Below, one piece after another: positions 231-34,309 of a stretch of DNA of 40,611 nucleotides (the stretch's first letter is position 1; each line of letters opens with the position of its first letter). Source of the DNA: Candidatus Poribacteria bacterium (GTDB taxonomy: Bacteria > Poribacteria > WGA-4E > WGA-3G). Under the pieces are notes generated by a model. The model did not search any database, was not told the origin of the DNA, and saw only the letters and a program-made list of their open reading frames with translations. Both the position numbers and the translations under genes were made by a program. The DNA is taken from NCBI GenBank assembly GCA_022822275.1, contig JAJEBZ010000138.1:1-40611 (forward strand). Direction: 5' to 3'.

Positions 231-306
231 TGGTGGAGGATACCAGACTTGAACTGGTGACCCCTTGCATGCCATGCAAGTGCTCTCCCAACTGAGCTAA
301 TCCCCC
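231..306 (-). tRNA. tRNA-Ala (anticodon GGC)
   Basis: On the minus strand the sequence folds into a standard cloverleaf. The acceptor GGGGGAT pairs with ATCCTCC (one G-T pair), the D arm begins TTAGCTCAGTTGGGAGAGC, the anticodon stem CTTGC/GCAAG encloses the loop ATGGCAT giving anticodon GGC, and the T arm is GTTCAAGTC-like. The discriminator is A and the terminal CCA is encoded (231-233). A GGC anticodon reads GCC/GCU alanine codons. The gene stands alone and diverges from the lipid megaenzyme downstream. Confidence 0.95.
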
Positions 307-517: not shown

Positions 518-3500
518 ATGTCAATAACCGATTTTTTTCGTGGGAAGGTCTTACTGATTACAGGTGGAACCGCCTTCCTTGGGCAACCGATGGTTGCGAA
601 GATATTAACTTCTCTCCCCGACGTACAACAAATTTACCTCCTTATTAGAAGTCGAATTGATTCAAATGGTAAAGTCACTTCTGCACAAGAACGTTTTGAA
701 AAGGAGTTGTTAACCTCCGATGTTTTTGGGGAGTTGCGCCAGTCACACGGTACAAAGTTTGAGGGTTGGGCGAAGGAGAAAGTTACTGCCATTGAAGGAG
801 AACTTACAGATGAACGTCTCGGATTTAGCGATGCAGACTATGATCGCCTCCAAGATGAAATAGACGTATTTATTAACATTGCGGGACTTGTTGATTTTGA
901 CCCGCCTTTTGATGCTTCACTAAAAGGGAACTCACTTGCCGCCAAACATGTGGTGACGTTTGCGAAAGGATGTTCCAAAGTTGTTTTTTTGCATGTTTCT
1001 ACTGCCTATGTCTGTGGAGATAAGCCCGGACATGTTCCAGAAGAATTGCACCCGCCTTATGAGCAGTTTGCACAACAACATAACGAAAAAAACGAAAACA
1101 CGATCCCCGCAACACTCTCGGATGAAATTGACTATCTCCTTAAATTAAGTCAATCTATTAGAGAGGAAGCAGACACACCAGAAAAAAATACCCACTTTCA
1201 GCAAATTGCACAGAAACAGTTAGACGCGGATAAACGTGCGAGCCGGAAAACAGTTGAAACACTTACTGAAGAGGTGAAAGCAGAATGGCTTGAAACTCAA
1301 CTTGTTGAGGCAGGACTCCAACATGCACGGTCTCGAGGCTGGAACGATACTTATACCTACATGAAATTCCTTGCAGAGCAAGTTGTGATGGAGATGCGGG
1401 GTGACCTACCTACTGCAATTATTCGGCCCTCCATTATAGAAAGTAGTTTTGCTGAACCACATCCTGGCTGGCTCGGAAAGTATCGGATGTCTGAACCGTT
1501 GATTGTCGGTTTCGCGAAAGGACGTATCCCCGACTTTCCCGCAAATCCTGATATCATATTAGATATTATACCTGTTGATTTTGTTGTGAATGCGATGTTA
1601 GCTGCTGCCGAGGCAATAGCAAAAAGTGGTGGAATTGAAGTTTATCATGTGGCAACAGGCACACAGAATCCGTTATATTTTCGTGGTATTGTGGACGCAA
1701 CTTCAGGCTATTTTACTGAACATCCGATGATAGAAAATGGTAAACCTATTGCAGTTCCGGTTTGGAAATTTCCCAGTTTGGAGGATTTCCAAAAGAAGGT
1801 GGAAGGCAAAATGCGGATGCTTGATCGCGCAATTCAACTGCTTTCAATGTTGCCTTTGAAATCAGCTAAACGCCAAAGACGAAGATTGGCAATCAAACAA
1901 AGCGGTATAAAAGCACTTCTCCATTACATTCGGATTTACGCCCCTTACACGCGAACGAACTTTGAATTTGAAACAGATAAGATGCAGGCACTTTACAACT
2001 CTCTCTCTCCTGATGAACAGAAACATTTTTGCTTTGATGTATCGCAAATTCAGTGGCAGCAATATTTTCAAGAGATACATATTCCGGGCATCAAACGGCA
2101 TGTGTTAAAACTCGAAGATAGAACAGCGAATACAGAAGAACAGAAAGAGAAAGTAGACGAACTGCCTGCCCCCGCTCCTAATCCGATTGATAGTATTTCA
2201 CCTAAAACAATAGTAGATTTAATAGAGATTCAGGCAAAACGGATTCCCGATAAAATTGCACTCCAAATGGTTACCGAAGGAGAATGGGAGCGATATACCT
2301 ACGCTGAAACCTATACACGTTCACGGCAAGCAGCATTCCAATTATGGAATAGTGGTATACGTGAAAGGGATCGGGTTGTGTTAGTATCGGAAAATCAACC
2401 GGAATGGTGCATTGCTTACCTTGCAGCCTCACAAATTGGGTGTGCAGTTGTACCTCTTGACGCACAAACGCCAACACGAGAGATTGTTGCCATAGCTAAA
2501 TTCACCGATGCAAAAGCAATCCTTGCATCTGATCATGTATTAACTCAGTCAGGTACAGAATTGACTGAAACTAATTTACTTGTGCAAAATATAAACCAGT
2601 TCCATGAAAACGTTGATGCAATTGAAAACATCCCGTCAGATTTTCCGGATGTAGAGATTAAACCCGATACCGTGGCATCTATTATTTTCACAATGGGAAC
2701 GACAGTAGACGCGAAAGGGGCAATGCTAACGCATGGCGGATTTATTTCCAATGTAAAAGCAGTCGCTAAGGCTCTACCACCTACAGATGAGGAACGTATC
2801 TTGTCAGCACTTCCATTGTACCATGCGCTCAGTTTTTCATGCAGTCTGTTGATGGCACTCTATAGCGGCACAACTGCCACTTTTGTTAATGCATTTCGTC
2901 CGACAACCCTTCTGAAAACGATGCGTGAGGACAAAACGACTGCATTTATCAGTGTGCCACGACTTTTTCAGATGCTGCAAAACACCATTGAACGACAGGT
3001 GTTGCGAGAAGATACGCCGGGAGAAACTTTGGCAGAAAAAGCACAAACAATTATGGGCGGACACATTCGGGTCCTTGTCAGTGGCGGGGCTGCACTCGGC
3101 GATGCAATATATGATGGTTTCCAAAAATTGGGGTTGACGCTTTATCAAGGTTACGGAATGACCGAAACGGCTCCTGTTCTCAGTGTCAATCCATATCAAA
3201 ATAGTAAACGCGGATCCGTCGGTCCCCCAGTGGAAGGCGTGGAATTTCAGATTGTAGCTCCAGGTAGCAATGGTATTGGTGAAATAATTGCTAAAGGTCC
3301 CAGTAATATGAAGGGGTACTATAATAATCAAAATGCTACGGAGAAAGCAATTCGTGACGGATGGCTGTACACAGGCGATCTTGGATATATTGATGACGAC
3401 GGTTATCTCTATCTCACTGGACATTGTAAGGACATAATCGTACCTGCTTCCGGCAAAAACATTTACCCCGTTGAAATGGAGGCACTCTATCAGAATAGTC

Positions 3501-4768
3501 CTGCGATTGCTGAAATGTGTGTCGTTGGCATCCCTGACGATGATGGTTCTGATACTGCAATCCATGCAGTGATTGTCCCAACAACAAACGATGAAACGAC
3601 TGAAGCAGAAATCCATAAACATGTGCAGCTTGTTGCGAAGCAACTCCCAAGTTATCAGCAATATCATAAATTGCATCTGTTTCCAGAATCTTTGCCAAAG
3701 ACCGAAGATGGGGAAATTGATAGAGCGCGTGTCAAAGAACAATTAGTTGAATTTCTTGCTAATGAACAAACCTTATTGGCAGATGAATCTAAACAGCAAA
3801 ACGAAAAATCTGACGCACGTCCAACAGAAAATATACCAAAAGATATTTTACAACCGCTTGCACAATTAGCACGTATGCCTGCAAACAAGATTTATCTTGA
3901 TAGTAATTTGGACATAGACCTTGGACTTGATTCGCTGACACGACTTGATTTACTCATGCTTCTTGAAGCACGGCTTGGTCAAACAATTCCTGACTCAATG
4001 CTTGCTAATTTGCAGACAGTCAGAGATGTCGTTGAGTTATCGCAGACTTTTGAGAAATCGGATCGTGTGGAATCAACGCCGACAGTAAAACCGTTACAGT
4101 TACGTAAAAAACCGCATTGGTATGCGCGTGCACTTCGTGCTTGTGTCCGCAGCTTATACCGTCATCGCTTTTCGTTTGAATGTTTCGGCATAGAAAATAT
4201 TCCTCAGGATAAACCTTATATTATTACACCGAACCACACGAGTCATTTAGACACATTGACAGTGATAACCGCGCTGGGGCAAGAATCACATCGCCTATGG
4301 ACGCTCGCTGCACGTGATTACTGGTTCGGTAATAAGATTCAGGGCTGGTTCGCGCACAACTGCCTCAATGCACTACCGATTGAACGTGATGGTAATTTCG
4401 CGCAGTTTCTGCAGGATTTGCGAATGGCTAATGAGGTGACAGAACAAAATAACGGTTTACTGATTTTTCCAGAAGGCACGAGATCGCTTGACGGAAAACT
4501 ACAGCCTTTCAAACCTGGGATTCTTAGTTTGCTGATTTATGGGCAGCAAGTTCCGATCATTCCTACGTATATTAAAGGAGCTTATGAAGTCCTTCCGAAA
4601 GGACAAGGTATTCCGAAAAAACACCCAATTCAGATTATTTTTGGGGAACCACTTCTTTTTGAAGTATCACAGAATCCGGGGGACATCACAGAAAACTCGG
4701 ATATCTATCAGAAATTCTTGACAGAACTTGAAAGTCGTGTCGCAAGACTCGGAGAAACACTCGGTTAG
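518..4768 (+). CDS. Fatty-acyl reductase / acyl-AMP ligase / acyl carrier / PlsC acyltransferase fusion
   Basis: A single 1416-residue protein carries four lipid domains. Residues about 8-430 form an SDR of the fatty-acyl-CoA reductase (male sterility) type, with nucleotide loop TGGTAFLG at 15-22 and a YTYMK catalytic pair (Y279, K283); a charged helical insert lies near 190-260. Residues about 575-1085 form an AMP-binding acyl-CoA synthetase: FTMGTT P-loop near 724, YGMTE at 879-883, TGD ending at D954, and SGKN with K980. An acyl carrier domain follows, LGLDSL with phosphopantetheine serine S1139. The C-terminus is PlsC: NHTSHLD (H1240, D1245) and FPEGTR at 1317-1322. The ATG at 518 follows AAAGGAA at good spacing; an upstream GTG at 497 would add 7 residues but lacks a site. 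The likely role, inferred, is to activate a fatty acid, hold it on the carrier, and either reduce it to an alcohol or esterify it to a glycerol backbone, as in ether lipid, wax ester or glycolipid synthesis. Confidence 0.88.
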   Translation: MSITDFFRGKVLLITGGTAFLGQPMVAKILTSLPDVQQIYLLIRSRIDSNGKVTSAQERFEKELLTSDVFGELRQSHGTKFEGWAKEKVTAIEGELTDERLGFSDADYDRLQDEIDVFINIAGLVDFDPPFDASLKGNSLAAKHVVTFAKGCSKVVFLHVSTAYVCGDKPGHVPEELHPPYEQFAQQHNEKNENTIPATLSDEIDYLLKLSQSIREEADTPEKNTHFQQIAQKQLDADKRASRKTVETLTEEVKAEWLETQLVEAGLQHARSRGWNDTYTYMKFLAEQVVMEMRGDLPTAIIRPSIIESSFAEPHPGWLGKYRMSEPLIVGFAKGRIPDFPANPDIILDIIPVDFVVNAMLAAAEAIAKSGGIEVYHVATGTQNPLYFRGIVDATSGYFTEHPMIENGKPIAVPVWKFPSLEDFQKKVEGKMRMLDRAIQLLSMLPLKSAKRQRRRLAIKQSGIKALLHYIRIYAPYTRTNFEFETDKMQALYNSLSPDEQKHFCFDVSQIQWQQYFQEIHIPGIKRHVLKLEDRTANTEEQKEKVDELPAPAPNPIDSISPKTIVDLIEIQAKRIPDKIALQMVTEGEWERYTYAETYTRSRQAAFQLWNSGIRERDRVVLVSENQPEWCIAYLAASQIGCAVVPLDAQTPTREIVAIAKFTDAKAILASDHVLTQSGTELTETNLLVQNINQFHENVDAIENIPSDFPDVEIKPDTVASIIFTMGTTVDAKGAMLTHGGFISNVKAVAKALPPTDEERILSALPLYHALSFSCSLLMALYSGTTATFVNAFRPTTLLKTMREDKTTAFISVPRLFQMLQNTIERQVLREDTPGETLAEKAQTIMGGHIRVLVSGGAALGDAIYDGFQKLGLTLYQGYGMTETAPVLSVNPYQNSKRGSVGPPVEGVEFQIVAPGSNGIGEIIAKGPSNMKGYYNNQNATEKAIRDGWLYTGDLGYIDDDGYLYLTGHCKDIIVPASGKNIYPVEMEALYQNSPAIAEMCVVGIPDDDGSDTAIHAVIVPTTNDETTEAEIHKHVQLVAKQLPSYQQYHKLHLFPESLPKTEDGEIDRARVKEQLVEFLANEQTLLADESKQQNEKSDARPTENIPKDILQPLAQLARMPANKIYLDSNLDIDLGLDSLTRLDLLMLLEARLGQTIPDSMLANLQTVRDVVELSQTFEKSDRVESTPTVKPLQLRKKPHWYARALRACVRSLYRHRFSFECFGIENIPQDKPYIITPNHTSHLDTLTVITALGQESHRLWTLAARDYWFGNKIQGWFAHNCLNALPIERDGNFAQFLQDLRMANEVTEQNNGLLIFPEGTRSLDGKLQPFKPGILSLLIYGQQVPIIPTYIKGAYEVLPKGQGIPKKHPIQIIFGEPLLFEVSQNPGDITENSDIYQKFLTELESRVARLGETLG

Positions 4769-4776
4769 GAAATAGG

Positions 4777-5463
4777 ATGGAAACGTTTCAGAAAAAAGCC
4801 ATCGCCTTTTTTGATGTAGACGGTACGTTGTTGAGTTCAACGATTGTGCATTGCTACTTATGGTTGCGGACCTCCTCGTTATCTTCTGTTCAGAAACTTT
4901 TCTGGATCATCGGTTTTCTCCCGAAGATCGTATACTACCTAATTCTTGACAAGATTAGCAGGGTGCGATTTAATCAGGTTTTCTATCGGAATTATCGTGG
5001 GATGGAAGCAACAAAAGTAAAAACGTTAGCATCTGATATGTTTGCAAACTATCTCAGCCAGAAAATCTTTCCGGAAGCCATTTCGCAGATAGAGGAACAT
5101 AAGGCACAAGGTGACCATGTCGTGCTATTGACAGGTTCGTTAGATTTTATTGTGGGTCCTATCGCGGAACATTTCGGTGTAGAGGCTGTTTTAGCTGCTA
5201 AACTTTCGGAACATGCTGGAAAGTTCACGGGAGAACTGACAACTGAACCGCTTATCGGTGAACAAAAAGCAATTGCGATGAAAAAGTTTGCTGAACAAAG
5301 AGGAATATCCTTGGATATCTGCTATGCGTATAGTGATAGCAAATCTGATCTGCCGATGTTAAATTGTGTTGGTAATCCGATAGCGGTAAACCCCAGCAAA
5401 GCATTACGTAAACTTGCCCTTGAAACAGATTGGGAAATCCATGAATGGATGAAAGCAACATAA
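4777..5463 (+). CDS. HAD-IB family phosphatase
   Basis: A 228-residue protein of the HAD subfamily IB (SerB/CicA-like, TIGR01490 type). Motif I is FFDVDGT with D13 as predicted nucleophile and D15 as acid. Motif II is LLTGS around residues 117-121. A lysine occurs in the GEQKAIAM segment, and motif IV YAYSDSKSD supplies D187 and D191. A hydrophobic stretch near residues 40-65 suggests membrane contact. It starts 8 nt after the megaenzyme stop with a GGAAATAGG site, so the two are one operon. Members of this family are often linked to PlsC. Here a phosphatidate, lysophosphatidate or alkyl-glycerol-phosphate substrate is inferred, which would complete glycerolipid assembly by the neighbouring protein. 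A phosphoserine phosphatase is less likely from context. Confidence 0.85.
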   Translation: METFQKKAIAFFDVDGTLLSSTIVHCYLWLRTSSLSSVQKLFWIIGFLPKIVYYLILDKISRVRFNQVFYRNYRGMEATKVKTLASDMFANYLSQKIFPEAISQIEEHKAQGDHVVLLTGSLDFIVGPIAEHFGVEAVLAAKLSEHAGKFTGELTTEPLIGEQKAIAMKKFAEQRGISLDICYAYSDSKSDLPMLNCVGNPIAVNPSKALRKLALETDWEIHEWMKAT

Positions 5464-5480
5464 CCTTATGAGGAGAACAA

Positions 5481-5693
5481 ATGGAAGTTAAACGTTATTT
5501 AGAATCAATGTCTGAACCGAATGATACCATGTTTATTGAATTTTCTGATATGTACCGTTTCACACGACGTGGTCAAGATTGGGAAAAATTCCGACAAGAT
5601 ATAATTGAAGTTCTTGAACAGACTGTTTCTGAAGAACTGTCTAAAGAATTCGCTGAAGCTACAGAGGACTGGAGTTCGGAGGATGCGATATAG
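5481..5693 (+). CDS. small acidic hypothetical protein
   Basis: A 70-residue acidic protein with no family I recognise. It starts with ATG 7 nt after a clear AGGAG site and 17 nt after the phosphatase stop, so it is probably the last gene of the lipid operon. The sequence is mostly predicted helix with a central FTRRGQDWEKFRQDIIEVLEQ segment and an acidic tail. There are no cysteines and no membrane segment. Position suggests a regulator or accessory of the lipid genes, but nothing in the sequence shows that. Confidence 0.6.
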   Translation: MEVKRYLESMSEPNDTMFIEFSDMYRFTRRGQDWEKFRQDIIEVLEQTVSEELSKEFAEATEDWSSEDAI

Positions 5694-5719
5694 ATGTGTG
5701 TAAAATACTTTAAACACCC

Positions 5720-5748
5720 TTGACAAACAGACCTCGTTAGGATAAAAT
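5720..5748 (+). promoter_or_regulatory. consensus sigma70 promoter
   Basis: TTGACA (5720-5725), exactly 17 nt, then TAAAAT (5743-5748). The expected start of transcription is only a few nt before the TTG at 5759, so the truncated toxin frame would have almost no leader. It likely drives the toxin-antitoxin pair. Confidence 0.7.
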
Positions 5749-5758
5749 TTGAATTGTT

Positions 5759-5947
5759 TTGTATCCGATTGTTCAACGAGCGAAATCTCAAGGCAATAAT
5801 CCGGTTTACTATGTCTTAGGACAAACAAACGAGGGACGCTATCTATTTTGTGTTATCATTCGATTTCCCGATGGTAGAGGCTATCCAGTCACAGCAAGAT
5901 CGATGACCGATAAAGAAAAACGGCAATATAGACGATGGAGGAATTGA
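5759..5947 (+). CDS. BrnT-like toxin, N-terminal half missing
   Basis: The 62-residue frame matches the C-terminal half of BrnT/DUF497-type RNase toxins. It contains YYVLGQTNEGRYLFCV, then YPVTARSMTDKEKRQYRR, the characteristic beta strands and closing basic helix. Family members are about 90 residues and begin with a WDxxN...H segment, and none of the three frames upstream of 5759 encodes it. The only start is TTG, directly downstream of the promoter at 5720, and an in-frame stop sits at 5750. The stop overlaps the antitoxin ATG by one base (TGATG), the normal toxin-first BrnT order. I infer a decayed toxin, or a short variant; the missing N-terminus carries active-site residues in BrnT, so RNase activity is doubtful. 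Confidence 0.5.
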   Translation: MYPIVQRAKSQGNNPVYYVLGQTNEGRYLFCVIIRFPDGRGYPVTARSMTDKEKRQYRRWRN

Positions 5948-6210
5948 TGAACCGTACAAAAATGCCACAGACAGACTCAATTCAAGAACTTGCCCATTTT
6001 TGGGACACACATGACTTAACCGATTTTGAGAATGAACTTGAAGAAGTGGATGAACCTATCTTTGAACTTCTAACGGAGTTGATCGTTCCCTTGCAACCTA
6101 AAGAGGCAGAAGCTCTGATGATACTTGCTAAGACGCGTGGCATTTCACCTGTCAATCTTATTCGAGAATGGGTCCTTGAACATATTGATACACCAGCGGC
6201 AGTCAGATGA
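5947..6210 (+). CDS. CopG/BrnA-like antitoxin
   Basis: An 87-residue protein with the layout of CopG-type antitoxins paired with BrnT. An acidic N-terminal part, ELAHFWDTHDLTDFENE (a FWxTHD motif typical of the family), binds toxin. A C-terminal ribbon-helix-helix follows: strand LIVPLQP, helix KEAEALMILAKTRG, helix SPVNLIREWVLEHI. The ATG at 5947 is preferred over 5935 because GGAGGAA lies 4 nt before it. In the family this protein binds its own promoter and neutralises the toxin. It appears intact although the toxin is cut short, which is how such loci look when the toxin has been lost first. Confidence 0.7.
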   Translation: MNRTKMPQTDSIQELAHFWDTHDLTDFENELEEVDEPIFELLTELIVPLQPKEAEALMILAKTRGISPVNLIREWVLEHIDTPAAVR

Positions 6211-6333
6211 TATTGTCGGATATACGCAGTTCTATGTAGTGAAGACGTGCAACAGATACAACTATCGTGAACTAATATTTTTTAAGCGTTTCTAAAGATG
6301 TGCAGGTATTTCTAAATCATAAGGAAACCAACG

Positions 6334-7053
6334 ATGTTGTTTACAAAATTTGATGTCACTGTAGCAGATTATAAAGATTTCATGAATTCATTGCCTGCAG
6401 GATCAGTGGATCTTATTTTAACGGATCCTCCATACTGCATTAGCAAAAAAACTGGATTTTCAGATGTTGTAAACGGTGTCCAGAGATTTGCTGTTAGCAT
6501 GGACTTTGGACCCTGGGATCATGTTGAGATAAATCTTGACGCTATGGCAAAGGTGTTCTATCAGTCCTTACGCCGAGGCGGCACTGCTATTGTCTGGTAT
6601 GACCTATGGAAAATAGGCAAGGTGAAGGATGCAATGGAATCGGCAGGTTTCAAAATGTTCCGTCAGATTATATGGCAGAAGACCAACCCTGTGCCATTAA
6701 ATATGCGCGCAACTTATCTGTCTAATAGTCGAGAAATGGCTGTTGTCGGTGTCAAAGTTGGCAAACCTACCTTCAATAGCGAGTATGACTCAGGTATCTA
6801 TGAGTATCCGATTCCTCGACACAAAGGCAAAAGGCAACATCCCACACAAAAACCACTGTTATTATTTGAGGATTTAGTCCGTAAACATAGTAACCAAGAG
6901 GATCTTGTTGTAGACCCGTTCCTCGGATCTGGCACGACCGGAGTTGCAGCATTGAGAAATTTTAGAAACTTTACTGGATGTGATATAGATGATAATTATG
7001 TGAGAATTACACAAAAAAGAATGGAAGATGCACAGAAAAAGTTAAATATATGA
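6334..7053 (+). CDS. site-specific DNA methyltransferase (N6-adenine or N4-cytosine)
   Basis: A 239-residue beta-class amino-methyltransferase. The catalytic motif DPPY (D31-Y34) comes first, and the S-adenosylmethionine motif DPFLGSGTTG (194-203) comes near the C-terminus; this order defines the beta class. The typical HPTQKP segment precedes the SAM motif. There is no separate target-recognition region of note, and no endonuclease gene in the window, so it is an orphan methylase. The start follows AAGGA with 8-nt spacing. Its stop overlaps the metG start (ATGA), so the two are translated together. The target could be a short palindrome used for regulation or phage defence; it cannot be read from the sequence. 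Confidence 0.88.
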   Translation: MLFTKFDVTVADYKDFMNSLPAGSVDLILTDPPYCISKKTGFSDVVNGVQRFAVSMDFGPWDHVEINLDAMAKVFYQSLRRGGTAIVWYDLWKIGKVKDAMESAGFKMFRQIIWQKTNPVPLNMRATYLSNSREMAVVGVKVGKPTFNSEYDSGIYEYPIPRHKGKRQHPTQKPLLLFEDLVRKHSNQEDLVVDPFLGSGTTGVAALRNFRNFTGCDIDDNYVRITQKRMEDAQKKLNI

Positions 7054-8942
7054 ACACATTTTACGTCACCACCCCTATTTACTACGCCAATGGTGAACCC
7101 CATGCGGGACACGCTTACACGACTATCGCTGCTGATGCATTAGCACGTTATCACCGTATCAAAGGTAATAACGTGTTTTTTCTGACTGGCGTTGATGAAC
7201 ACGGCGCAAACATTGATAAGACAGCTGAAGCCGAAGGGCTTTCCCCGCAAGCATTTTGCGACAAATTAGCACCAATTTTTACCAAGTTGTGGGAACGGCT
7301 AAATATATCAAATGACATCTTTCTCCGAACAACAAGCGAGCTCCACAAACGTGGAATAAAAAAGTTTCTTACTGCCTTATATGAGAGTGGAGATGTCTAC
7401 AAAGCACCTTATGAAGGGTATTACTGCCGTCCATGTGAACGTTTTTTCCCTGAGAAAGAGTTAACCGATGATAAAATCTGTCCGATTCATAAATTGCCGT
7501 TAGAATGGGTGAAAGAGGAAAACTATTTTTTTCGTCTCTCCAAGTATCAGGACCGTTTGATACAACATTACAATGAGAATCCCGATTTTGTGTATCCTGA
7601 AAGTCGACGGAATGAGCTCTTAAACGTGTTGGAATCAGGATTAGAAGATACAAGCATTTCACGTTCCTCTGTCTCGTGGGGAATACCTTTACCGTTTGAC
7701 CCCGAGCACATTGCTTATGTCTGGATAGATGCACTTCCGAACTATATAACCGCTTTGGGGTATGATGCCGATAGTGAAAGGTATCATGCATTTTGGCCTG
7801 CTGATGTACACATGATGGCAAAGGAAATCACCCGTTTTCACGCGCTACTTTGGCCCGCAATGTTAATGGCAGCGAACCTGCCACTTCCCAAACAGATTGT
7901 CGCACACGGTTGGTTGACCAAGGACGGCGAAGCACTGAGCAAAACACGGGGCATCTTTATTGATATGGATGGTGATATTGCCACCTATGGTGTTGATGCG
8001 TTTCGTTATTACCTTCTGCGTGAATTTAGTTTCGGGAATGATGGTGACTACCGTCCTGCACGTTTGCATGCACGTTATAACGCAGATCTTGCAAACGATC
8101 TGGGGAATTTGCTTAATCGTGTACTTGGATTGGTGAACAAGAACTTTGATGAAATACCTGCCCCCACAACGCCCGGTGATTTTGACGATGAAATCAAGGA
8201 GATGGCACAAACCACAGTGGATCAATTGGACGCGCAAATGGAGACATTTGCTTTTGACACTGCATTAGAAACGATATGGGAATTTGTGCGCCGCGTCAAC
8301 CGTTATATCCAGCAAACTGAAGTCTGGACACTGGCTAAACCAGAAACGAAACCGAGAATGGGAACTATCCTTTACAATAGCTTAGAAGCACTACGATTTA
8401 TCTCTGTGCTGTTATCACCGTTTATTCCAGAGACTGCAGAGAAGATACAGAAACAGATCGGTTTGGCTGAGTTTGATACCGTCGCAGAATGGGGACGTTT
8501 ATCTATAGGTTTAAAAGTCAGCAAAGGTGAACCCATCTTCCCGAGAGTTGATCTGAAGAAAGAAAAAGCACCACAATCAAAAGCAGCTAAACCTAAACAG
8601 AAATTAGAAAAGAAGACTACCGATCTTATCTCCTTTGCTGATTTTCAAAAACTGGATTTAAGAGTTGGTAACGTTATCTCTGCTGAGCCGATTGAAGATG
8701 CTGATCGTCTTCTCAAACTACAGGTTGACCTCGGAACAGAAAAACGCCAGGTAGTTGCAGGTATAGCAGAACACTATAAACCGGATATCCTAATCGGCAA
8801 ACAGGTCATCATCGTTGTAAATTTAGAACCCGCGACGATACGTAATGTTGAATCACAAGGTATGATTCTCGCGGCAAGTGGTGATGCTGTCGTCTTAGCA
8901 ACACCTGAAACGAAAGTACCACTTGGCACAAAAGTTCGGTAG
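7050..8942 (+). CDS. metG: methionine-tRNA ligase
   Basis: A 630-residue class I methionyl-tRNA synthetase, charging tRNA-Met. The HIGH motif is HAGH (18-21). A zinc knuckle CRPC...CPIH lies near residues 127-148, and the KMSKS equivalent is ALSKT (295-299). The anticodon-binding helical domain follows (about 340-500). A lysine-rich linker leads to a C-terminal tRNA-binding OB fold (about 525-630, LDLRVGNV), found in dimeric bacterial enzymes. The CxxC...CxxH zinc set and overall layout recall Thermus-type enzymes. Length is normal. It overlaps the methylase gene by 4 nt, an odd pairing of a housekeeping gene behind a DNA methylase. Confidence 0.97.
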   Translation: MNTFYVTTPIYYANGEPHAGHAYTTIAADALARYHRIKGNNVFFLTGVDEHGANIDKTAEAEGLSPQAFCDKLAPIFTKLWERLNISNDIFLRTTSELHKRGIKKFLTALYESGDVYKAPYEGYYCRPCERFFPEKELTDDKICPIHKLPLEWVKEENYFFRLSKYQDRLIQHYNENPDFVYPESRRNELLNVLESGLEDTSISRSSVSWGIPLPFDPEHIAYVWIDALPNYITALGYDADSERYHAFWPADVHMMAKEITRFHALLWPAMLMAANLPLPKQIVAHGWLTKDGEALSKTRGIFIDMDGDIATYGVDAFRYYLLREFSFGNDGDYRPARLHARYNADLANDLGNLLNRVLGLVNKNFDEIPAPTTPGDFDDEIKEMAQTTVDQLDAQMETFAFDTALETIWEFVRRVNRYIQQTEVWTLAKPETKPRMGTILYNSLEALRFISVLLSPFIPETAEKIQKQIGLAEFDTVAEWGRLSIGLKVSKGEPIFPRVDLKKEKAPQSKAAKPKQKLEKKTTDLISFADFQKLDLRVGNVISAEPIEDADRLLKLQVDLGTEKRQVVAGIAEHYKPDILIGKQVIIVVNLEPATIRNVESQGMILAASGDAVVLATPETKVPLGTKVR

Positions 8943-8965
8943 AAGGCAGGCTGCAATTTCCCAAG

Positions 8966-11900
8966 ATGCATGATATAGAAAACACCATCAAAACGCTTAT
9001 TCGTGAAGATAGGGCAGAAACCTGTGTTATCATTGTGCCTAATGATGCTGCGCGCTTAAAACGGCAACGCGAGTTGATTGCATATCACCCAAACCGGGCT
9101 GTCGCCAATATGCAGGTATATGACATTGAGAACTTTGTCCAAAGGTTATACAGCCAAGTTCGTCCGCTACGAGAACATATATCATCAGGCATCCAAAGTC
9201 TTTGGCTGCACGAAATAGTCAATCCTAACTCGGATAATACCGATTCCAACACATATAATGCATTTCGCCCAAATCCCGATGTTGCTGTCCCCGATAGCAC
9301 ACTCTCTCTCATCACTGACACAATAAATAACCTCAAAGAACGTGGAGAGACTGCTCAAAACATCAAAACAGATACACCCACCAAAACTGAACTATCTCAT
9401 ATCTATACCAAATATGAGGATAAACTCTACGAACATTGGATAGATGACAGAGGCAAACATCTCTACCTTGCAAACAACTTTAAACATGACTACTTTAACA
9501 GTGTATTTTCCCAAGCAGACCTTGTTGTTGTAGAGGGTTTCACAGTCCTGACAAAAGCTGACATCAAACTTTTGAAAGGTATTGCTGGAATACCTGATTT
9601 AGAGATGTGGTTCCGCACGGACTGTTTTTCAAAAAATGAACACCTCTATAAAAATATCACTGACCTTGTCAAAGAATTTGAAGAGGTAGGTATTTACATT
9701 GATTCCGAATATGAGCGCGATGCTGACACTCACAACCATTTCGCAAAAAACCTGTTCCAAACGATGAGTGCTGCAAACCGCAAAATTGACCTAACGGATC
9801 AAATTAGAGTTTTAGAACCATCTAATCGGACCGAAGAAATAGAGCAAATTGCATACTTAACTCATAAATATGTGTCAGAAGGTAAATGCAAATTGAGCGA
9901 AATCTGTGTTACGTTCTACAATATCAGCAATTATCAACAGCGGATTGCAGAAATTTTTCATGCTTTTGGAATTCCATACTCACTTGCAGAAAGTATCCCG
10001 TTAACAAAATCAGGAGTTGTCAAAGAGATATTTTCTCAACTTTCACCAAACCGACAACCTATAGGCAATACCTATTTTGAGGGGAATAATAATTTATCAT
10101 CTAACCAGTCCTTTTATCCCGATGATTTTCAGGAATATGTTGAAAAACTGCTAAACACTGGTGGAGTCCTTCAACGGATTCTAAACCCGATGCTGCGGAG
10201 AAATACCGAAATTGTTGAGAATGAAATAAATGCATTTCATCAATTCAGAAGAGTTGTCAAAGAACTATGTGATGTCTTGAAATCTGAGCGTGATGGAACT
10301 TACAATCTGAATGATTATGTAAGACAACTCACCTACATGGCAAGGCACACACACTATCAGAATAGGGCGGAGACAAAAGCAGGAGCAGTCAAAATTGCGA
10401 CACTCGGAGAACTCAGGAGCTCGGAGTATAGAATCGTCTTTTTAGGAGATTTTGTAGATGGTGGTTTCCCGCCACATTATCGACCCGACCCATTACTCCC
10501 AGACACACCCTATCGCACTGAAGACGAACTATTGCACGATAATAGATTCCTTTTTTATCGTGTGCTAAAGTCCTTTAGCACACGGTTATATCTCCTTATA
10601 CCAAAACGCGAAAATGTGTCGGAACTCATCCCATCTTTATTTCTAACGCAATTACAAGCAATCGCGAACATCGGAACGGAAGAAATTGCCAATCCTACAG
10701 AGAAAAGTGTTCCCGGTTTCATGAGTGCTTACGGTGATTATGTGTGGAAAGTAGATGAACCTTCTGATGTGGAATTCCCATCCGAAGTCGCAGATATGCA
10801 ACAACTCATAAATCATGTCGTTAAAGTTGAAAAGAGCCGCGAAGAAACACACGATAAATTAGCGTATGAAGGAATATTGACAAAAAAAGCACTCTCTTCT
10901 CAGAGCCATTCCGTTTTGGATAATTTGCGGAATCAACCTTTTTCAGCGACGGATTTGGAAACTTACGCGAAATGTCCATTTCAGTACTTTATCTCCAAAG
11001 TGCTAAAATCCAAGCCGAAAGAGGAAGAGGAAGAAGTTGAACCATCAAGTCTTGAGAAAGGAGATTTAGCACATAAAATTCTTTGCAGCTTCTATATGGA
11101 ACGTAGAGAACATGAAGATTTACCCATTAGACAATGTAGTGATGACAACTTTGAACAAGCAAAACAGCAATTAGATGCAATTCTAAATCGCGAATCTGAA
11201 GAAAAACGTAATGGCCGCAAAGAAATAAGTGAAAACAATCTTTTTTGGAAAATAGAGATAGAAAAACTACAGACTGCCCTACATAATTGGCTTGAAGCAG
11301 AACGAACTTACGAGTTTCCTGTTATTCCACACTTCTTTGAAGTAAATATTGGACATACAGATCAACCCGGTGATCCTAAATTGATTTGTCCTGAACCGTT
11401 ATCCATTAGTGGTGTGAAAATACGGGGTAGAATTGATCGTATTGACATCGGTAAAGGCAGTTTTAATATCATTGATTATAAAACCGGCAGTTCAAAGGTA
11501 CTAATTCGAGATATACTTGAGGGACGGAGTCTGCAACTGCCCATTTATCTACAGATCGCGGAGCAGTTGCTTGATGAAAATGGTTTCCCCGGATTAGAGG
11601 CATCGGCAGGACTCTATCACAAAATTAGACTGGACGAATGCCAAGTTGAACTCGGCATCGGTGCAGAGGCATTAAATGACATTGCTTATGGAACTTACAA
11701 CGGTCAAGAATGGAAAAAGGCAAATAAAAGTGGTCAATTATTAGAAGAAACAACTTTTAGAGCACTCCTTAAACGCGTCAATGGATATGTTGAGCAGTAT
11801 GTTGATAGCATTACAAACGGTATATTCCCCCTTATCACGCGTGTTGATACTTACGTAGAGTCGGAAGATGAGGGCGATACGCCTATCAAACCTAAAGAGA

Positions 11901-30282: not shown

Positions 30283-30352
30283 TAATGCAACCTTTTTAAT
30301 TTTAAAACTCGTCACTTTAATTAAGTAGTGATACCACATCGGAGTGCTTTTT

Positions 30353-33300
30353 ATGCAAAATAACGATCCTGAATTGATTCAGCGAACATTGGACGGTGAC
30401 CAAGCGGCATTTACTGCCCTCGTTGAAAAATATCAAAAGGGAATTCACGCACTTGCCTGGCGGAAAATCGGGGATTTTCATATCGCACAAGAAATTACGC
30501 AAGACGCTTTTCTCAGAGCTTATCAAAGACTCAGGACTTTGAAAGACCATAGTTTGTTTCCAGGATGGGTATATGTGATTACATCTCACCTATGCACTGA
30601 ATGGCATCGGAAAAAGAAACTTCCGACCCAATCTTTAGAAACTACTGATGTCTCGGAGATTGATCAAGTGTCACATTCACAATATATAGCAGAGAAACGA
30701 GACACTGAAGCGGCTGAAGCCCGGCGCGAAATCGTCCAAAAACTGCTCAAAAAATTGCCTGAGAGCGAACGCACAGTCATGGCACTCCACTATCTTGGAG
30801 AAATGACATGTGAGACGATTGGCAAGATGCTCGGTGTATCCTCAAATACGATTAAAAGCCGACTCAGTCGCGCACGCAACCGTTTAAGGAAAGAGGAAGC
30901 GATTATTAGGGAAAATCTGAGCAGCTTCCAACTTCCAACGCAATTTACAGAAAATATAATAAAGGAAATCTCGCGCATTAATCCTATTGTTCCATCAAGC
31001 AGCAAGCCATTTGTGCCGTGGATAGTTTCTGCTGCCTCCGCTATTTTAGTTCTATTACTAATAGGTATCGGAGTCCAACACCTTTCTATCTCTTTCCAAC
31101 CGTACGATCTCAATTCCGAATCGATGTTAACAGTTGAAATCGTTGATACGCCTGTTAGTGCAATCCGTCAAATAAAACCTGATTCGCGTAATCAACTCGG
31201 AACCACCGATATTTCCAGTAATAGTCAAGGTGCTGGTGAAAAAGTGGATACATCTCAAAACGTAAACTTCGCCAATATTATCCCAACAATTGAAACAGAG
31301 ATACCACTCTCAACGGAACGGTGGACTCAACTTGACAGCCCTGATCCGGTAAAAATATCTACGCTATTTGCCACGAAAACAAATGACCTTTATGCGGTGA
31401 CTCCAATAGGACTTTATCGATTGACGACTGCTAACAAAGGGTGGCACTTAATCAACAGGAACCTTCCTATTACGCACAAAAAGATGCCGATAGCTGAGCA
31501 AGATGGGACCCTCTATATTGTAACGGATGAGGCAGTCTTCACTTCAAAAGATAAAGGTGAAACGTGGAAATCTCTCGGTCCGCGTCCGAAAGGACGGGCA
31601 ATGGACTTGATCGTAAAAGATAATGCACAAGGCTCTATTGAACTTTACCTCGCGCTTCTTCAGAGAATATTTTACTCTGATGATGCAGGAGTCTCTTGGA
31701 CACCTCTAAACAAAGGCTTGGTAAGGAGAAAAATCTATACATTAACCTCCCATGAAAACACACTATTTGCTGGTACCGATAGAGGACTTTTCCGCTTCAA
31801 TCTGGAACCGAATTCGGAAAACGGTCTTGATAGATCAGGTGTATGGAAAAAATTACCAGTAGCGGAATCTAAATCTATTCACGCATTTGCAGTGTCTGAA
31901 CATCGTCTTTATGTTCTTGTAGGAAGCCGCAAAATTCCGGCTGATATGAATTTTATAGATATTGCGGCTTTGGCGAAGACACCTCTAAGTAAACAGTTTT
32001 TATGGTCAGTTTTTAGATCAACGGATCAAGGGAACTCGTGGACAGATATTACACCAAAAAACTTTTTTCAAAAAGGTGAAATATCTACAACTTTCAAGAT
32101 TGTTGCGGCAGGAAAAACATTGGTGTTAATAGGTTCTAAGGACATTTTGCGTTCAACGGATGAGGGGAAAACATGGATGCTCGTTGATAAATCAACACCT
32201 TACAAAAGGTTTTCAGGTCTGAGTGTTGTTGCTGCTTTGAAAGTCCAAAGTAACGATGTATCCTCTAATCAACAACATGCTACAAGTGCCAAGCCTCAAT
32301 TTTACATAGGGGATTATAACGGAATCCGCCGGTCAACCGATGGTGGTGATTCGTGGAAACGATTTAACACCGGATTAGGTGGCAAAATACAAAATCTAAC
32401 TGTCTTTAAAAATAAACTCTACGTAGTGGCAGATGAAAAACTTATTACATCAACCAACGGTGGGCAGTCATGGAAAGTAATTCCTGTGAATGCAGATGAG
32501 ACGAATATGACTTTTTTTAACAAGAAAATAACGCTGCCCAAGGCAAGAGCACAACAAATAGTAAGAATACAACAAATAGTAGAAGCAGATGGACTTCTTT
32601 ACGCAAAGGGATACATAATTTTCCAACCAGAGTTTTTTCGCTTAGACGAACAAAATGGGACGCTTATCCCGGTCCAAGGTGTGCCTGCCTTTGGGGAAAG
32701 GGATCTCATAGCAGAATTTATGAAGACAATCCAGGATGCCAATGAAAAAAATGCCAGCAATTTGCAAGGAAAATTTCTCAGCATGGGAGCGGATATCTGG
32801 GGTGCATTTGCTGTGAGCGGAAACACATTCTATGTTGAACACAGCCGGAAACTTCTAATATGGAACCCTTCATCTGAAATGAACAGCGGTACAGGTTGGT
32901 ATGATGCTAAGATCGAAGATACTCGCGACATTGCAGACTTAGCTTCTCCTAATAGTTTCAAGTTCGGAGTTTCTGGTGACACTGTCTACGTTGGCAAACC
33001 TGATGGTATTTTACTTCACTCTGTTGATAGAGGACGCAATTGGAAAACCGTCCCATTACCGATTCCTGCTAAGTTCTTCAAACAAATTCTCATCGTTGAC
33101 AAAACTGTTTACGTGGCAACTGACAAAGAAGCTCTATATTCAAACGATGGCACGGTATGGAACATTATTACCACTTCAGATGGACAACAGCTGATATTAG
33201 ACCGTTTTGCTACAGATGATAGCACTTTATATGCTGTGTGTACTTCAAAAAATGTTCAAGGTGGGGTGTATCGATTAACAAGTGCAGATAGCACTTGGGA

Positions 33301-33421
33301 ACGGATAACACCAGAAATTCCGGACGATGCAACTTCTGTCACTGTTACCAATGGCATACTTTATGTTGGCACCGAGAACAGCGGTTTGCAAGTTATTGGG
33401 CTTGCAGACTTTCCACAGTAA
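30353..33421 (+). CDS. ECF sigma factor with transmembrane segment and Asp-box beta-propeller
   Basis: A 1022-residue protein in which residues 1-182 are an ECF sigma factor: region 2 with FTALVEKYQKGIHALAWRKI and TQDAFLRAYQRL, region 4 (about 130-182) with LPESERTVMALHYLGEMT and the helix-turn-helix GVSSNTIKSRLSRARNRL. A single hydrophobic span follows (about 224-243). The remaining 780 residues are repeats of sialidase/BNR type, with seven clear Asp boxes such as SKDKGETW, SDDAGVSW, STDQGNSW, STDEGKTW, STDGGDSW, STNGGQSW and SVDRGRNW, making one or two propellers outside the membrane. No separate anti-sigma gene is seen. I infer that the outer propeller senses something and that release or cleavage frees the sigma domain. 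The ATG at 30353 has GGAG 8 nt upstream; a GTG at 30344 overlaps that site. Confidence 0.9.
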   Translation: MQNNDPELIQRTLDGDQAAFTALVEKYQKGIHALAWRKIGDFHIAQEITQDAFLRAYQRLRTLKDHSLFPGWVYVITSHLCTEWHRKKKLPTQSLETTDVSEIDQVSHSQYIAEKRDTEAAEARREIVQKLLKKLPESERTVMALHYLGEMTCETIGKMLGVSSNTIKSRLSRARNRLRKEEAIIRENLSSFQLPTQFTENIIKEISRINPIVPSSSKPFVPWIVSAASAILVLLLIGIGVQHLSISFQPYDLNSESMLTVEIVDTPVSAIRQIKPDSRNQLGTTDISSNSQGAGEKVDTSQNVNFANIIPTIETEIPLSTERWTQLDSPDPVKISTLFATKTNDLYAVTPIGLYRLTTANKGWHLINRNLPITHKKMPIAEQDGTLYIVTDEAVFTSKDKGETWKSLGPRPKGRAMDLIVKDNAQGSIELYLALLQRIFYSDDAGVSWTPLNKGLVRRKIYTLTSHENTLFAGTDRGLFRFNLEPNSENGLDRSGVWKKLPVAESKSIHAFAVSEHRLYVLVGSRKIPADMNFIDIAALAKTPLSKQFLWSVFRSTDQGNSWTDITPKNFFQKGEISTTFKIVAAGKTLVLIGSKDILRSTDEGKTWMLVDKSTPYKRFSGLSVVAALKVQSNDVSSNQQHATSAKPQFYIGDYNGIRRSTDGGDSWKRFNTGLGGKIQNLTVFKNKLYVVADEKLITSTNGGQSWKVIPVNADETNMTFFNKKITLPKARAQQIVRIQQIVEADGLLYAKGYIIFQPEFFRLDEQNGTLIPVQGVPAFGERDLIAEFMKTIQDANEKNASNLQGKFLSMGADIWGAFAVSGNTFYVEHSRKLLIWNPSSEMNSGTGWYDAKIEDTRDIADLASPNSFKFGVSGDTVYVGKPDGILLHSVDRGRNWKTVPLPIPAKFFKQILIVDKTVYVATDKEALYSNDGTVWNIITTSDGQQLILDRFATDDSTLYAVCTSKNVQGGVYRLTSADSTWERITPEIPDDATSVTVTNGILYVGTENSGLQVIGLADFPQ

Positions 33422-33515
33422 AGCCACGAAGGACTCGCGACAGGTGGACGCGTGCAGAGAAAGAATCCACCGTATAAGAAGTTAAGTCTAACTCAAAGAG
33501 CGTCCTCGTTGTTTT

Positions 33516-33544
33516 ACGGGGATATGAGATATGCCCGTTCTTTT
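33516..33544 (+). terminator. terminator after the sigma-factor gene
   Basis: ACGGGgATAT-gag-ATATgCCCGT (33516-33538), broken only by one G-G mismatch, is followed by TTCTTTT. It is a good intrinsic terminator about 95 nt after the stop. The rest of 33422-33706 holds no gene I would defend, though a 9-codon frame with a strong site starts at 33606. Confidence 0.65.
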
Positions 33545-33706
33545 CAGTTCATAAACTTATAGGGCACCTGAAGTTTACCAGATATTATTTTATTTGGAGG
33601 GACAGATGCAAGGGCATGTCTCTTTTATTAAATAAACGAAGTCTCCAAAATGGAGAACAAATTAACCAAAACCGCCAAATTCTGGCGCAAGAAAGGAAGA
33701 TGCAAA

Positions 33707-34309
33707 ATGCACAAAAATTTAAACGCCCTTTATTGTGGCGTACATAATGTCTTTACGGTAAGAAATAAGTCGTTATATATGTTAACTATTCTTATCCTCG
33801 CAGCGTGTTTCACTATAGGCTGTGAAAGCGGTTCATCAACACGTTTTTCAACAAGGCTGCTTGAAGCTTTTGACGAAGGTTTTCTTGATCTAAATAGAAC
33901 AATTACGGTAACACTTGGTGAAAAGGATGGTAGTGGGATTACCGGCACAGCGATTTTTATGGAATATGTAGATTCAGATACGGGATCCTCCGGATCATAT
34001 AAGATTCAGAATTTTGATGTTGAGATTCAGAATGCGGTCCCTGGCCGTAAATACGCTGCATATATCTATTCTGGTAATAGTTGCGACACGCCTGGTAGTA
34101 TCTGGGAAGTGGACGGTTTCACTTCATATTCTTTTACAGCTGATGAACATGGTGTAGGGATCAATAGTTACCTCACTGACCTCACAATTGACACCAATCC
34201 ATCAACCGATATACTCGGTAAAGTCGTTGTCATTCACGAACAGGTTGGAACTGGTGGTTTAGCAGATGGCACGCAAGTGAGTTGTGGTGTTGTAACACTC
34301 TCGGAATAG
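33707..34309 (+). CDS. lipoprotein with Cu/Zn-superoxide-dismutase-like fold, metal ligands apparently lost
   Basis: A 200-residue protein starting at the ATG at 33707 (AAAGGAAG 7 nt upstream). A hydrophobic stretch ends in the lipobox FTIGC with C39, so the mature protein is probably a lipoprotein. The rest resembles Cu/Zn SOD: ITGTAIF, VPGRKYAAYIYSGNSCDTPGS where SOD has GxHGFHxHxxGDC, and near the C-terminus STDILGKVVVIHEQVGTGG...GTQVSCGVVTL, which matches the IVGR-VVH...RxACGVI segment including the disulphide cysteine. The copper histidines of the GFHxH motif are replaced by AAYIY. One late histidine (VIHE) remains. It is likely a structural relative without dismutase activity. Confidence 0.6.
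   Translation: MHKNLNALYCGVHNVFTVRNKSLYMLTILILAACFTIGCESGSSTRFSTRLLEAFDEGFLDLNRTITVTLGEKDGSGITGTAIFMEYVDSDTGSSGSYKIQNFDVEIQNAVPGRKYAAYIYSGNSCDTPGSIWEVDGFTSYSFTADEHGVGINSYLTDLTIDTNPSTDILGKVVVIHEQVGTGGLADGTQVSCGVVTLSE

Follow-up and report, generated by a model that had tools for sequence, protein, structure and literature searches.

A single protein that joins an ECF sigma factor, one transmembrane span and an Asp-box propeller is encoded at 30353..33421 on the forward strand of the window, the 40,611-nucleotide stretch of a Candidatus Poribacteria genome bin analysed here. This protein, 1022 residues in one open reading frame, is read as a membrane-held ECF sigma factor that serves as its own receptor and that, as we infer, is freed by proteolytic cleavage; a probability of about 0.6 is given to this reading. 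In the usual scheme, ECF signalling runs through a sigma factor, a separate anti-sigma factor and a protease. In the Poribacteria, a phylum known for sponge symbionts, an entire bacterial family instead has one-chain receptors by the dozen; no anti-sigma factor is recognisable in them, and most have a readable promoter. One-chain ECF and membrane-sensor proteins (IutY, ECF48/52/53) and ECF-WD40 fusions in Planctomycetes are already known (PMC8999054, PMC8567305). What is new is a large, lineage-expanded set without recognisable anti-sigma factor and with exchangeable outside sensors, some of which are dead copies of a neighbouring exported protein. No account of this family was found in the literature searched on Poribacteria and sigma factors, or on ECF factors with Asp-box or propeller domains.

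The open reading frame starts with the ATG at 30353, which has a Shine-Dalgarno-like GGAG on its 5' side, and its stop codon ends at 33421. A GTG start at 30344 was dropped in favour of this ATG because most family matches begin only at the fourth residue when the query is numbered from the GTG. Sigma-70 region 2 (residues 23-89, 30419..30619; PF04542, E 9.6e-10) and region 4 (residues 126-178, 30728..30886; PF08281, E 1.3e-13), both on the forward strand, were matched above the Pfam cut-off as Sigma70_r2 and Sigma70_r4_2, and are followed by Sortilin-Vps10, PSII_BNR and BNR matches. The presence of regions 2 and 4 without region 3 is that of an ECF sigma-70 factor, and NCBIfam TIGR02937 is also above cut-off. 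The N-terminal model was matched best by Foldseek to SigW, AlgU and E. coli sigma-E, and region 2 to sigma-E region 2 and SigW. Conservation within the family is highest in regions 2 and 4 (0.83-1.09 bits). The intact ECF sigma factor that had been proposed from the sequence alone is thus borne out by both the Pfam and the fold matches.

A transmembrane prediction was run on the full protein. Exactly one span was obtained by hydropathy, at residues 223-241 (31019..31075, +), where the mean KD value is 2.52 versus 1.24 for the next best window; the sequence-only reading had placed it at 224-243. In a non-redundant sample, 68 of 73 family members have the span. AlphaFold2, run with eight relatives, models the span as a helix at 224-247 with low confidence, preceded by a helix at 197-209 in a linker that is also of low confidence. 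Residues 189-333 are of low confidence, the linker is not resolved in a prediction on residues 1-270 either, and no inhibitory contact is visible in the models. The inner juxtamembrane segment (residues 183-222, 30899..31018, +) carries the motif FQLPxxxTENIMxEI..P..KPxxPW, which is conserved in the family. Its sequence has 0 Cys and 0 His, so no zinc-finger anti-sigma motif is present in it; a hidden zinc-finger anti-sigma domain in the linker was rejected on this ground and for want of a Pfam match. On the other side of the span lies a second conserved motif, QxLxxFQxPYxLxAxSExxVEIVDxP (residues 242-268, 31076..31156, +). Across members with unrelated sensors, the entropy of residues 242-262 is 1.20 bits versus 1.09 bits for sigma region 2. 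Conservation this close to that of sigma region 2 would be expected of a site shared by all members for a protease or partner, and the motif is a candidate recognition site of that kind.

The propeller with its 7 Asp-boxes occupies residues 337-1018 (31361..33406, +), as indicated by AlphaFold2, Foldseek and Pfam. The boxes, of the S-x-D-x-G-x-x-W type, are at residues 398, 442, 556, 601, 661, 700 and 890. The model, made with eight relatives, is all-beta; most blocks have a pLDDT of 60-87 and the loops are of low confidence. The best Foldseek matches of the whole model are the HTCS extracellular domain BT4673 of Bacteroides and GH74 xyloglucanases. About 780 residues of Asp-box repeats had been expected directly after the span; the Asp-box propeller is there, but about residues 242-336 proved to be the juxtamembrane motif and a low-confidence linker. 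The propeller probably binds a ligand, which we infer to be a glycan or a surface ligand.

The union of sensor, anchor and sigma factor in one chain, as the sequence-only reading had it, recurs in 10 orthologs (62-89% identity) and in about 18 to at least 29 paralogs per genome. An assembly fusion, a gene-calling artefact or chance was therefore ruled out, since the same chain occurs in these 10 orthologs and in dozens of paralogs. One ortholog (L023, 6010-9074) has a stop near the C-terminus that breaks the chain. The named relatives are all Candidatus Poribacteria; the genomes surveyed are almost all metagenome bins, and promoters, topology and release are predictions. The sigma head plus span (residues 1-280) was matched at E < 1e-40 in 70 of 85 Poribacteria genomes. 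All 18 genomes of the window genus carry 18 to at least 29 such matches, a second genus has 8 to at least 29 per genome, and other genera have 0-3. The genome of the window holds about 19 members, and another genome of this genus, which is closed (G010), holds 23, of which 18 have the span and 5 do not. Span-less members number about 5 per genome and share their sigma head with the others; their C-termini are of WD40, Asp-box (one member), beta/gamma-crystallin and thioredoxin-like types. Across the family, the head is joined to Asp-box, WD40, C-type lectin and M16 peptidase sensors; judged by sequence, the sensors are interchangeable on a common sigma-plus-span head. Outside Poribacteria, a single-sequence scan of genome contigs gave Asp-box-only matches, in Tenacibaculum and in one Flavobacteriaceae record. 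The wealth of WD40 proteins in Poribacteria has long been noted, in a paper from which sigma factors are absent (PMC3909097), and the present family may account for part of it. In G010, the members at 7683-10839 and 1377-3884 of locus L271 are truncated or broken by a stop or frameshift; the locus sits in a tandem cluster, which suggests a turnover of copies there.

Several sensors resemble the product of an adjacent gene. In genome G000 (contig C21, region 5459-9011), the sigma-span-M16 gene L067 lies 56 nt after a gene for a secreted M16 peptidase. The neighbouring peptidase has a signal peptide and the site HLIEH. Its fused counterpart shares 69% identity with it over 412 residues and has NLIMR at the active site. 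The corresponding pair in G010 (L277, 4329-7943) is 77.5% identical, with HLIEH in the neighbour and SLIMH in the fused copy, so that HxxEH is lost from the sensor copies of both genomes. In each genome, a family-type promoter lies 114 nt 5' of the peptidase gene and none before the sigma gene, as would be seen in an operon. At L270 of G010 (2712-8014), a sigma-span-C-type-lectin gene is flanked on both sides by homologues that encode signal peptides, and Pfam identifies the product of one flanking gene as a C-type lectin. In G000, a sigma-span-WD40 gene is followed by the gene of a WD40 protein with a signal peptide. Among span-less members, the adjacent homologue has no signal peptide in two of the three cases that could be read (L073, 50% over 658 residues; L281, 55% over 690 residues). 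The exception is the beta/gamma-crystallin member L280, whose neighbour has an N-terminal span; for L071 of G000, the neighbour is 56% identical over the 164 residues read and is cut by the contig end. The span-less L073 itself (562-5922, G000:C72) has a long domain with a match to AhpC/TSA (peroxiredoxin/thioredoxin-like).

These pairs tentatively suggest, at somewhat less than even odds, that a portable sigma-plus-span head has repeatedly acquired a duplicate of a protein encoded next to it, in many cases an exported one. The duplicate, sometimes catalytically dead, would have become a receptor for what the intact neighbour acts on, switching on both that neighbour and itself. Such repeated joining, if true, would explain the large self-regulating receptor sets in one Poribacteria family. 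From the dead-copy sensors, one can make a first guess at the targets that single receptors sense. The integrated decoys of plant immune receptors offer a likeness to this duplicate-turned-receptor scheme. For the window gene, no look-alike of the sensor is present among the adjacent genes; those assigned encode a SPOR-domain protein, an amidohydrolase-like protein, an aminotransferase-like protein and a lipoprotein.

The earlier reading depended on a sensor outside the cytoplasm, and the region after the span is indeed best read as extracytoplasmic. The predicted location of the sensor outside the inner membrane is well supported by hydropathy, homology, fold matches and a modest charge bias (2.9 versus 1.8 K+R). 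It is indicated by the pairing of span-bearing heads with exported look-alikes in four of four cases, including the lectin and M16 sensors, and by the propeller's best fold matches, which are extracellular or secreted domains.

A predicted ECF promoter of the window gene lies at 30286..30314 (+), with the -35 element TGCAACC, a 17-nt spacer and the -10 element CGTCA; a promoter of this kind ahead of their own gene is typical of ECF sigma factors, though not obligatory. This block is conserved in all aligned orthologs while the remaining upstream sequence drifts. The same block, with variants, precedes most paralogs as TGCA(A/C)CC-N16/17-CGTCA. The strict pattern TGCAMCC-N16/17-CGTCA has 10 matches in the 4.53 Mb genome, and 9 of these precede family members; the reversed pattern, used as a control, has 2. 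Of 52 upstream regions of family members, a set that includes orthologs of one another, 30 carry the promoter motif, versus 0.05 in shuffles and 0 on the opposite strand. The tenth strict match (G000:C271, L082 782-2308) is 83 nt 5' of a gene whose TPR product carries a signal peptide, possibly a further sigma target.

The promoter variants were compared with the recognition helix of region 4 in a non-redundant set of 51 members whose motif could be read, and residues 168 and 172 track the promoter type family-wide. Arg at 172 goes with TGCACC (7/9, versus 4/42 members without it; Fisher 9e-5), Arg at 168 goes with GTCT (9/10 versus 5/41; 6e-6), and the helix VRSRLH occurs with TGCAATT-N16 in all six of its members and in no others (6e-8). 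With the remainder of the sigma head controlled for, helix and promoter were still correlated in a partial Mantel test (r 0.24, p 0.0025). The R172/TGCACC pairing has at least two joint origins on the tree, and VRSRLH/TGCAATT is one clade. Three members (L263, L236 and L175) are counterexamples to the pairing. Clade-marking columns elsewhere in the protein associate with the promoter as strongly as the helix residues do, which indicates that the association is in part shared ancestry. There is good evidence, short of proof, from this sequence comparison that each sigma head reads the promoter in front of its own gene, and the associations can be taken as predicted sigma-promoter pairs. Given the own-promoter motif and the variants that track the recognition helix, the family members are apparently working, self-regulating sigma factors, and their autoregulation is well supported in this way.

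The genome of the window has seven zf-HC2 matches in all, each a zinc-finger membrane anti-sigma gene directly 3' of a stand-alone ECF gene of about 200 residues, and none of the seven is beside a fusion gene. The earlier statement that no anti-sigma gene lies alongside the window gene therefore holds. A site-2 protease of the RseP-type M50 group is encoded in the genome. Proteases of this type were found in 14 of 14 control genomes, and because they are near universal, their presence gives little support for cleavage.

Known systems share parts of this architecture. The Bacteroides hybrid two-component sensors BT4673 and BT4663, to which the best fold match leads, also place a propeller ectodomain on a single-chain sensor-regulator, with no family relation to the window protein. 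The output of such hybrid sensors is a histidine kinase with an AraC-type regulator and not a sigma factor. IutY (ECF243) of Pseudomonas putida, a FecI-FecR fusion activated by Prc/RseP cleavage, likewise has an ECF sigma factor, a membrane-bound part and an outside region in one chain (PMC8999054). IutY differs in having a FecR-type anti-sigma domain and a TonB-dependent receptor as partner, whereas the outside part of the window protein is itself a large binding-type domain. No FecR domain was matched in it by Pfam at E<1, and no TonB-dependent receptor gene was recognised among the assigned neighbours. In ECF52, ECF48 and ECF53 (e.g. SCO4117 of Streptomyces), an ECF sigma factor is also fused to a span, and SCO4117 has an outside carbohydrate-binding domain with proteolytic activation proposed (PMC8999054, PMC5826349). 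The window protein agrees with these groups in its one span (223-241, where they have 1-2) and outside extension; however, they belong to another phylum and carry a zinc-finger (ZAS) motif in the extension, whereas the window linker is without Cys and His. ECF57 and the ECF-WD40 proteins of Planctomycetes share with the family an ECF sigma factor, long C-terminal propeller repeats and paralog expansion (PMC8999054, PMC8567305), the propeller being WD40 in the paralogs and of the Asp-box type in the window gene. The Cys pair said to link sigma-2 and sigma-4 in ECF57 is not conserved in the Poribacteria family (C81 97%, C153 43%). The SigI-RsgI systems of Clostridium thermocellum resemble the family in their paralogs, one shared signalling head, differing outside sensors (carbohydrate-binding, glycosidase and peptidase-like) and proteolytic release (PMC12203970). 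There, the head is an anti-sigma factor with a separate sigma factor, whereas in Poribacteria the sigma factor itself is the head.

In the scheme of membrane holding and proteolytic release, the propeller would sense a signal outside the inner membrane while the single span keeps the sigma domains at the membrane's inner face. The signal would lead to a first cut in the conserved motif on the outer side of the span, followed by a second within the span. The freed sigma fragment of about 26 kDa would drive its own promoter (30286-30314) and probably also the conserved lipoprotein gene downstream. Proteolytic release is favoured because of the conserved outer motif, the presence of an RseP-type protease and the analogy with IutY. 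The five of 23 members in the closed genome that lack a span weigh against this scheme, as their heads must be controllable in another way, and they indicate that tethering is not the sole control of the sigma head. In some of them, the conserved helix FQLPxxxTENIM is kept and perhaps provides that control.

This observation is also a ground for a conformational switch without cleavage, which is considered unlikely. The helix FQLPxxxTENIMxEI between region 4 and the span would fold onto the sigma domains in the manner of an anti-sigma helix and detach upon ligand binding, with the sigma factor staying in the membrane or in the soluble chain. The motif is kept in the span-less L070 (FELPENLTDNIM) and L072_7432 (LQLSDNLKENIM), such members cannot use intramembrane release, and the fused extensions of the ECF41/ECF42/ECF57 type are thought to act by conformation or protein contact (PMC8999054). 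However, the models give no confident contact between helix and sigma domains, and the conserved outer motif would be left unexplained. That motif also speaks against a sigma factor that is never released, as its strong conservation suggests a transmembrane event. In such a case, which we rate as quite improbable, the tethered sigma factor would recruit RNA polymerase at the membrane and transcribe membrane-near genes, with the tether only setting the location. Membrane-bound one-component regulators do exist in other families, and neither the chain itself nor its neighbours show an anti-sigma domain, but in the absence of any signalling step the sensor would serve no purpose.

It is very improbable that the span is spurious or the sensor cytoplasmic, which would make the protein a soluble sigma factor with a regulatory propeller. 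The span-less relatives, whose C-termini are of the four types named above (WD40, Asp-box, beta/gamma-crystallin, thioredoxin-like), fit such a soluble form; the hydropathy of 2.52, in a position shared with 68 of 73 members, does not, nor does the contrast between the lectin and M16 sensors of span members, which have adjacent homologues with signal peptides, and the readable span-less members, two of three of which do not. A sigma part that is a relic or decoy and no longer directs transcription is hardly credible: some family members are truncated or broken by stops, but regions 2 and 4 are the best conserved of the whole chain and track the promoter.

The lipoprotein gene (33650..34309, +; start at 33650, 33713 or later) encodes a signal sequence with a Cys within LAACFTIGC. 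The protein has no Pfam match above cut-off, and the gene is single copy in the genome. Of all neighbours, this gene, which the sequence-only reading does not mention, is alone in being retained in every one of the 10 orthologs (61-88% identity), even where the rest of the synteny has broken down, and it is a candidate target or partner of the window sigma factor. The intergenic leader between the two genes (33428..33650, +) is highly conserved in the 10 orthologs, single copy in the genome, and folds better than shuffles (z -3.26). A known riboswitch was rejected for this leader, in which an Rfam search with E values up to 1 gave no match. Two-sided change was seen in 1 of 53 pairs, so the predicted RNA structure is suggested by its folding energy. 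Elsewhere in the window, Rfam at gathering threshold lists no tRNA, and ARAGORN calls a tRNA-Ala (ggc) at 231-306 (-). By eye, a further fusion was seen in G000 (C81; L129, 582-2375, -), where an ECF sigma factor is joined to a C-terminal domain with the FtsZ/tubulin-like GTPase motif GVGGAGCNAVKRL in a protein of about 598 residues.
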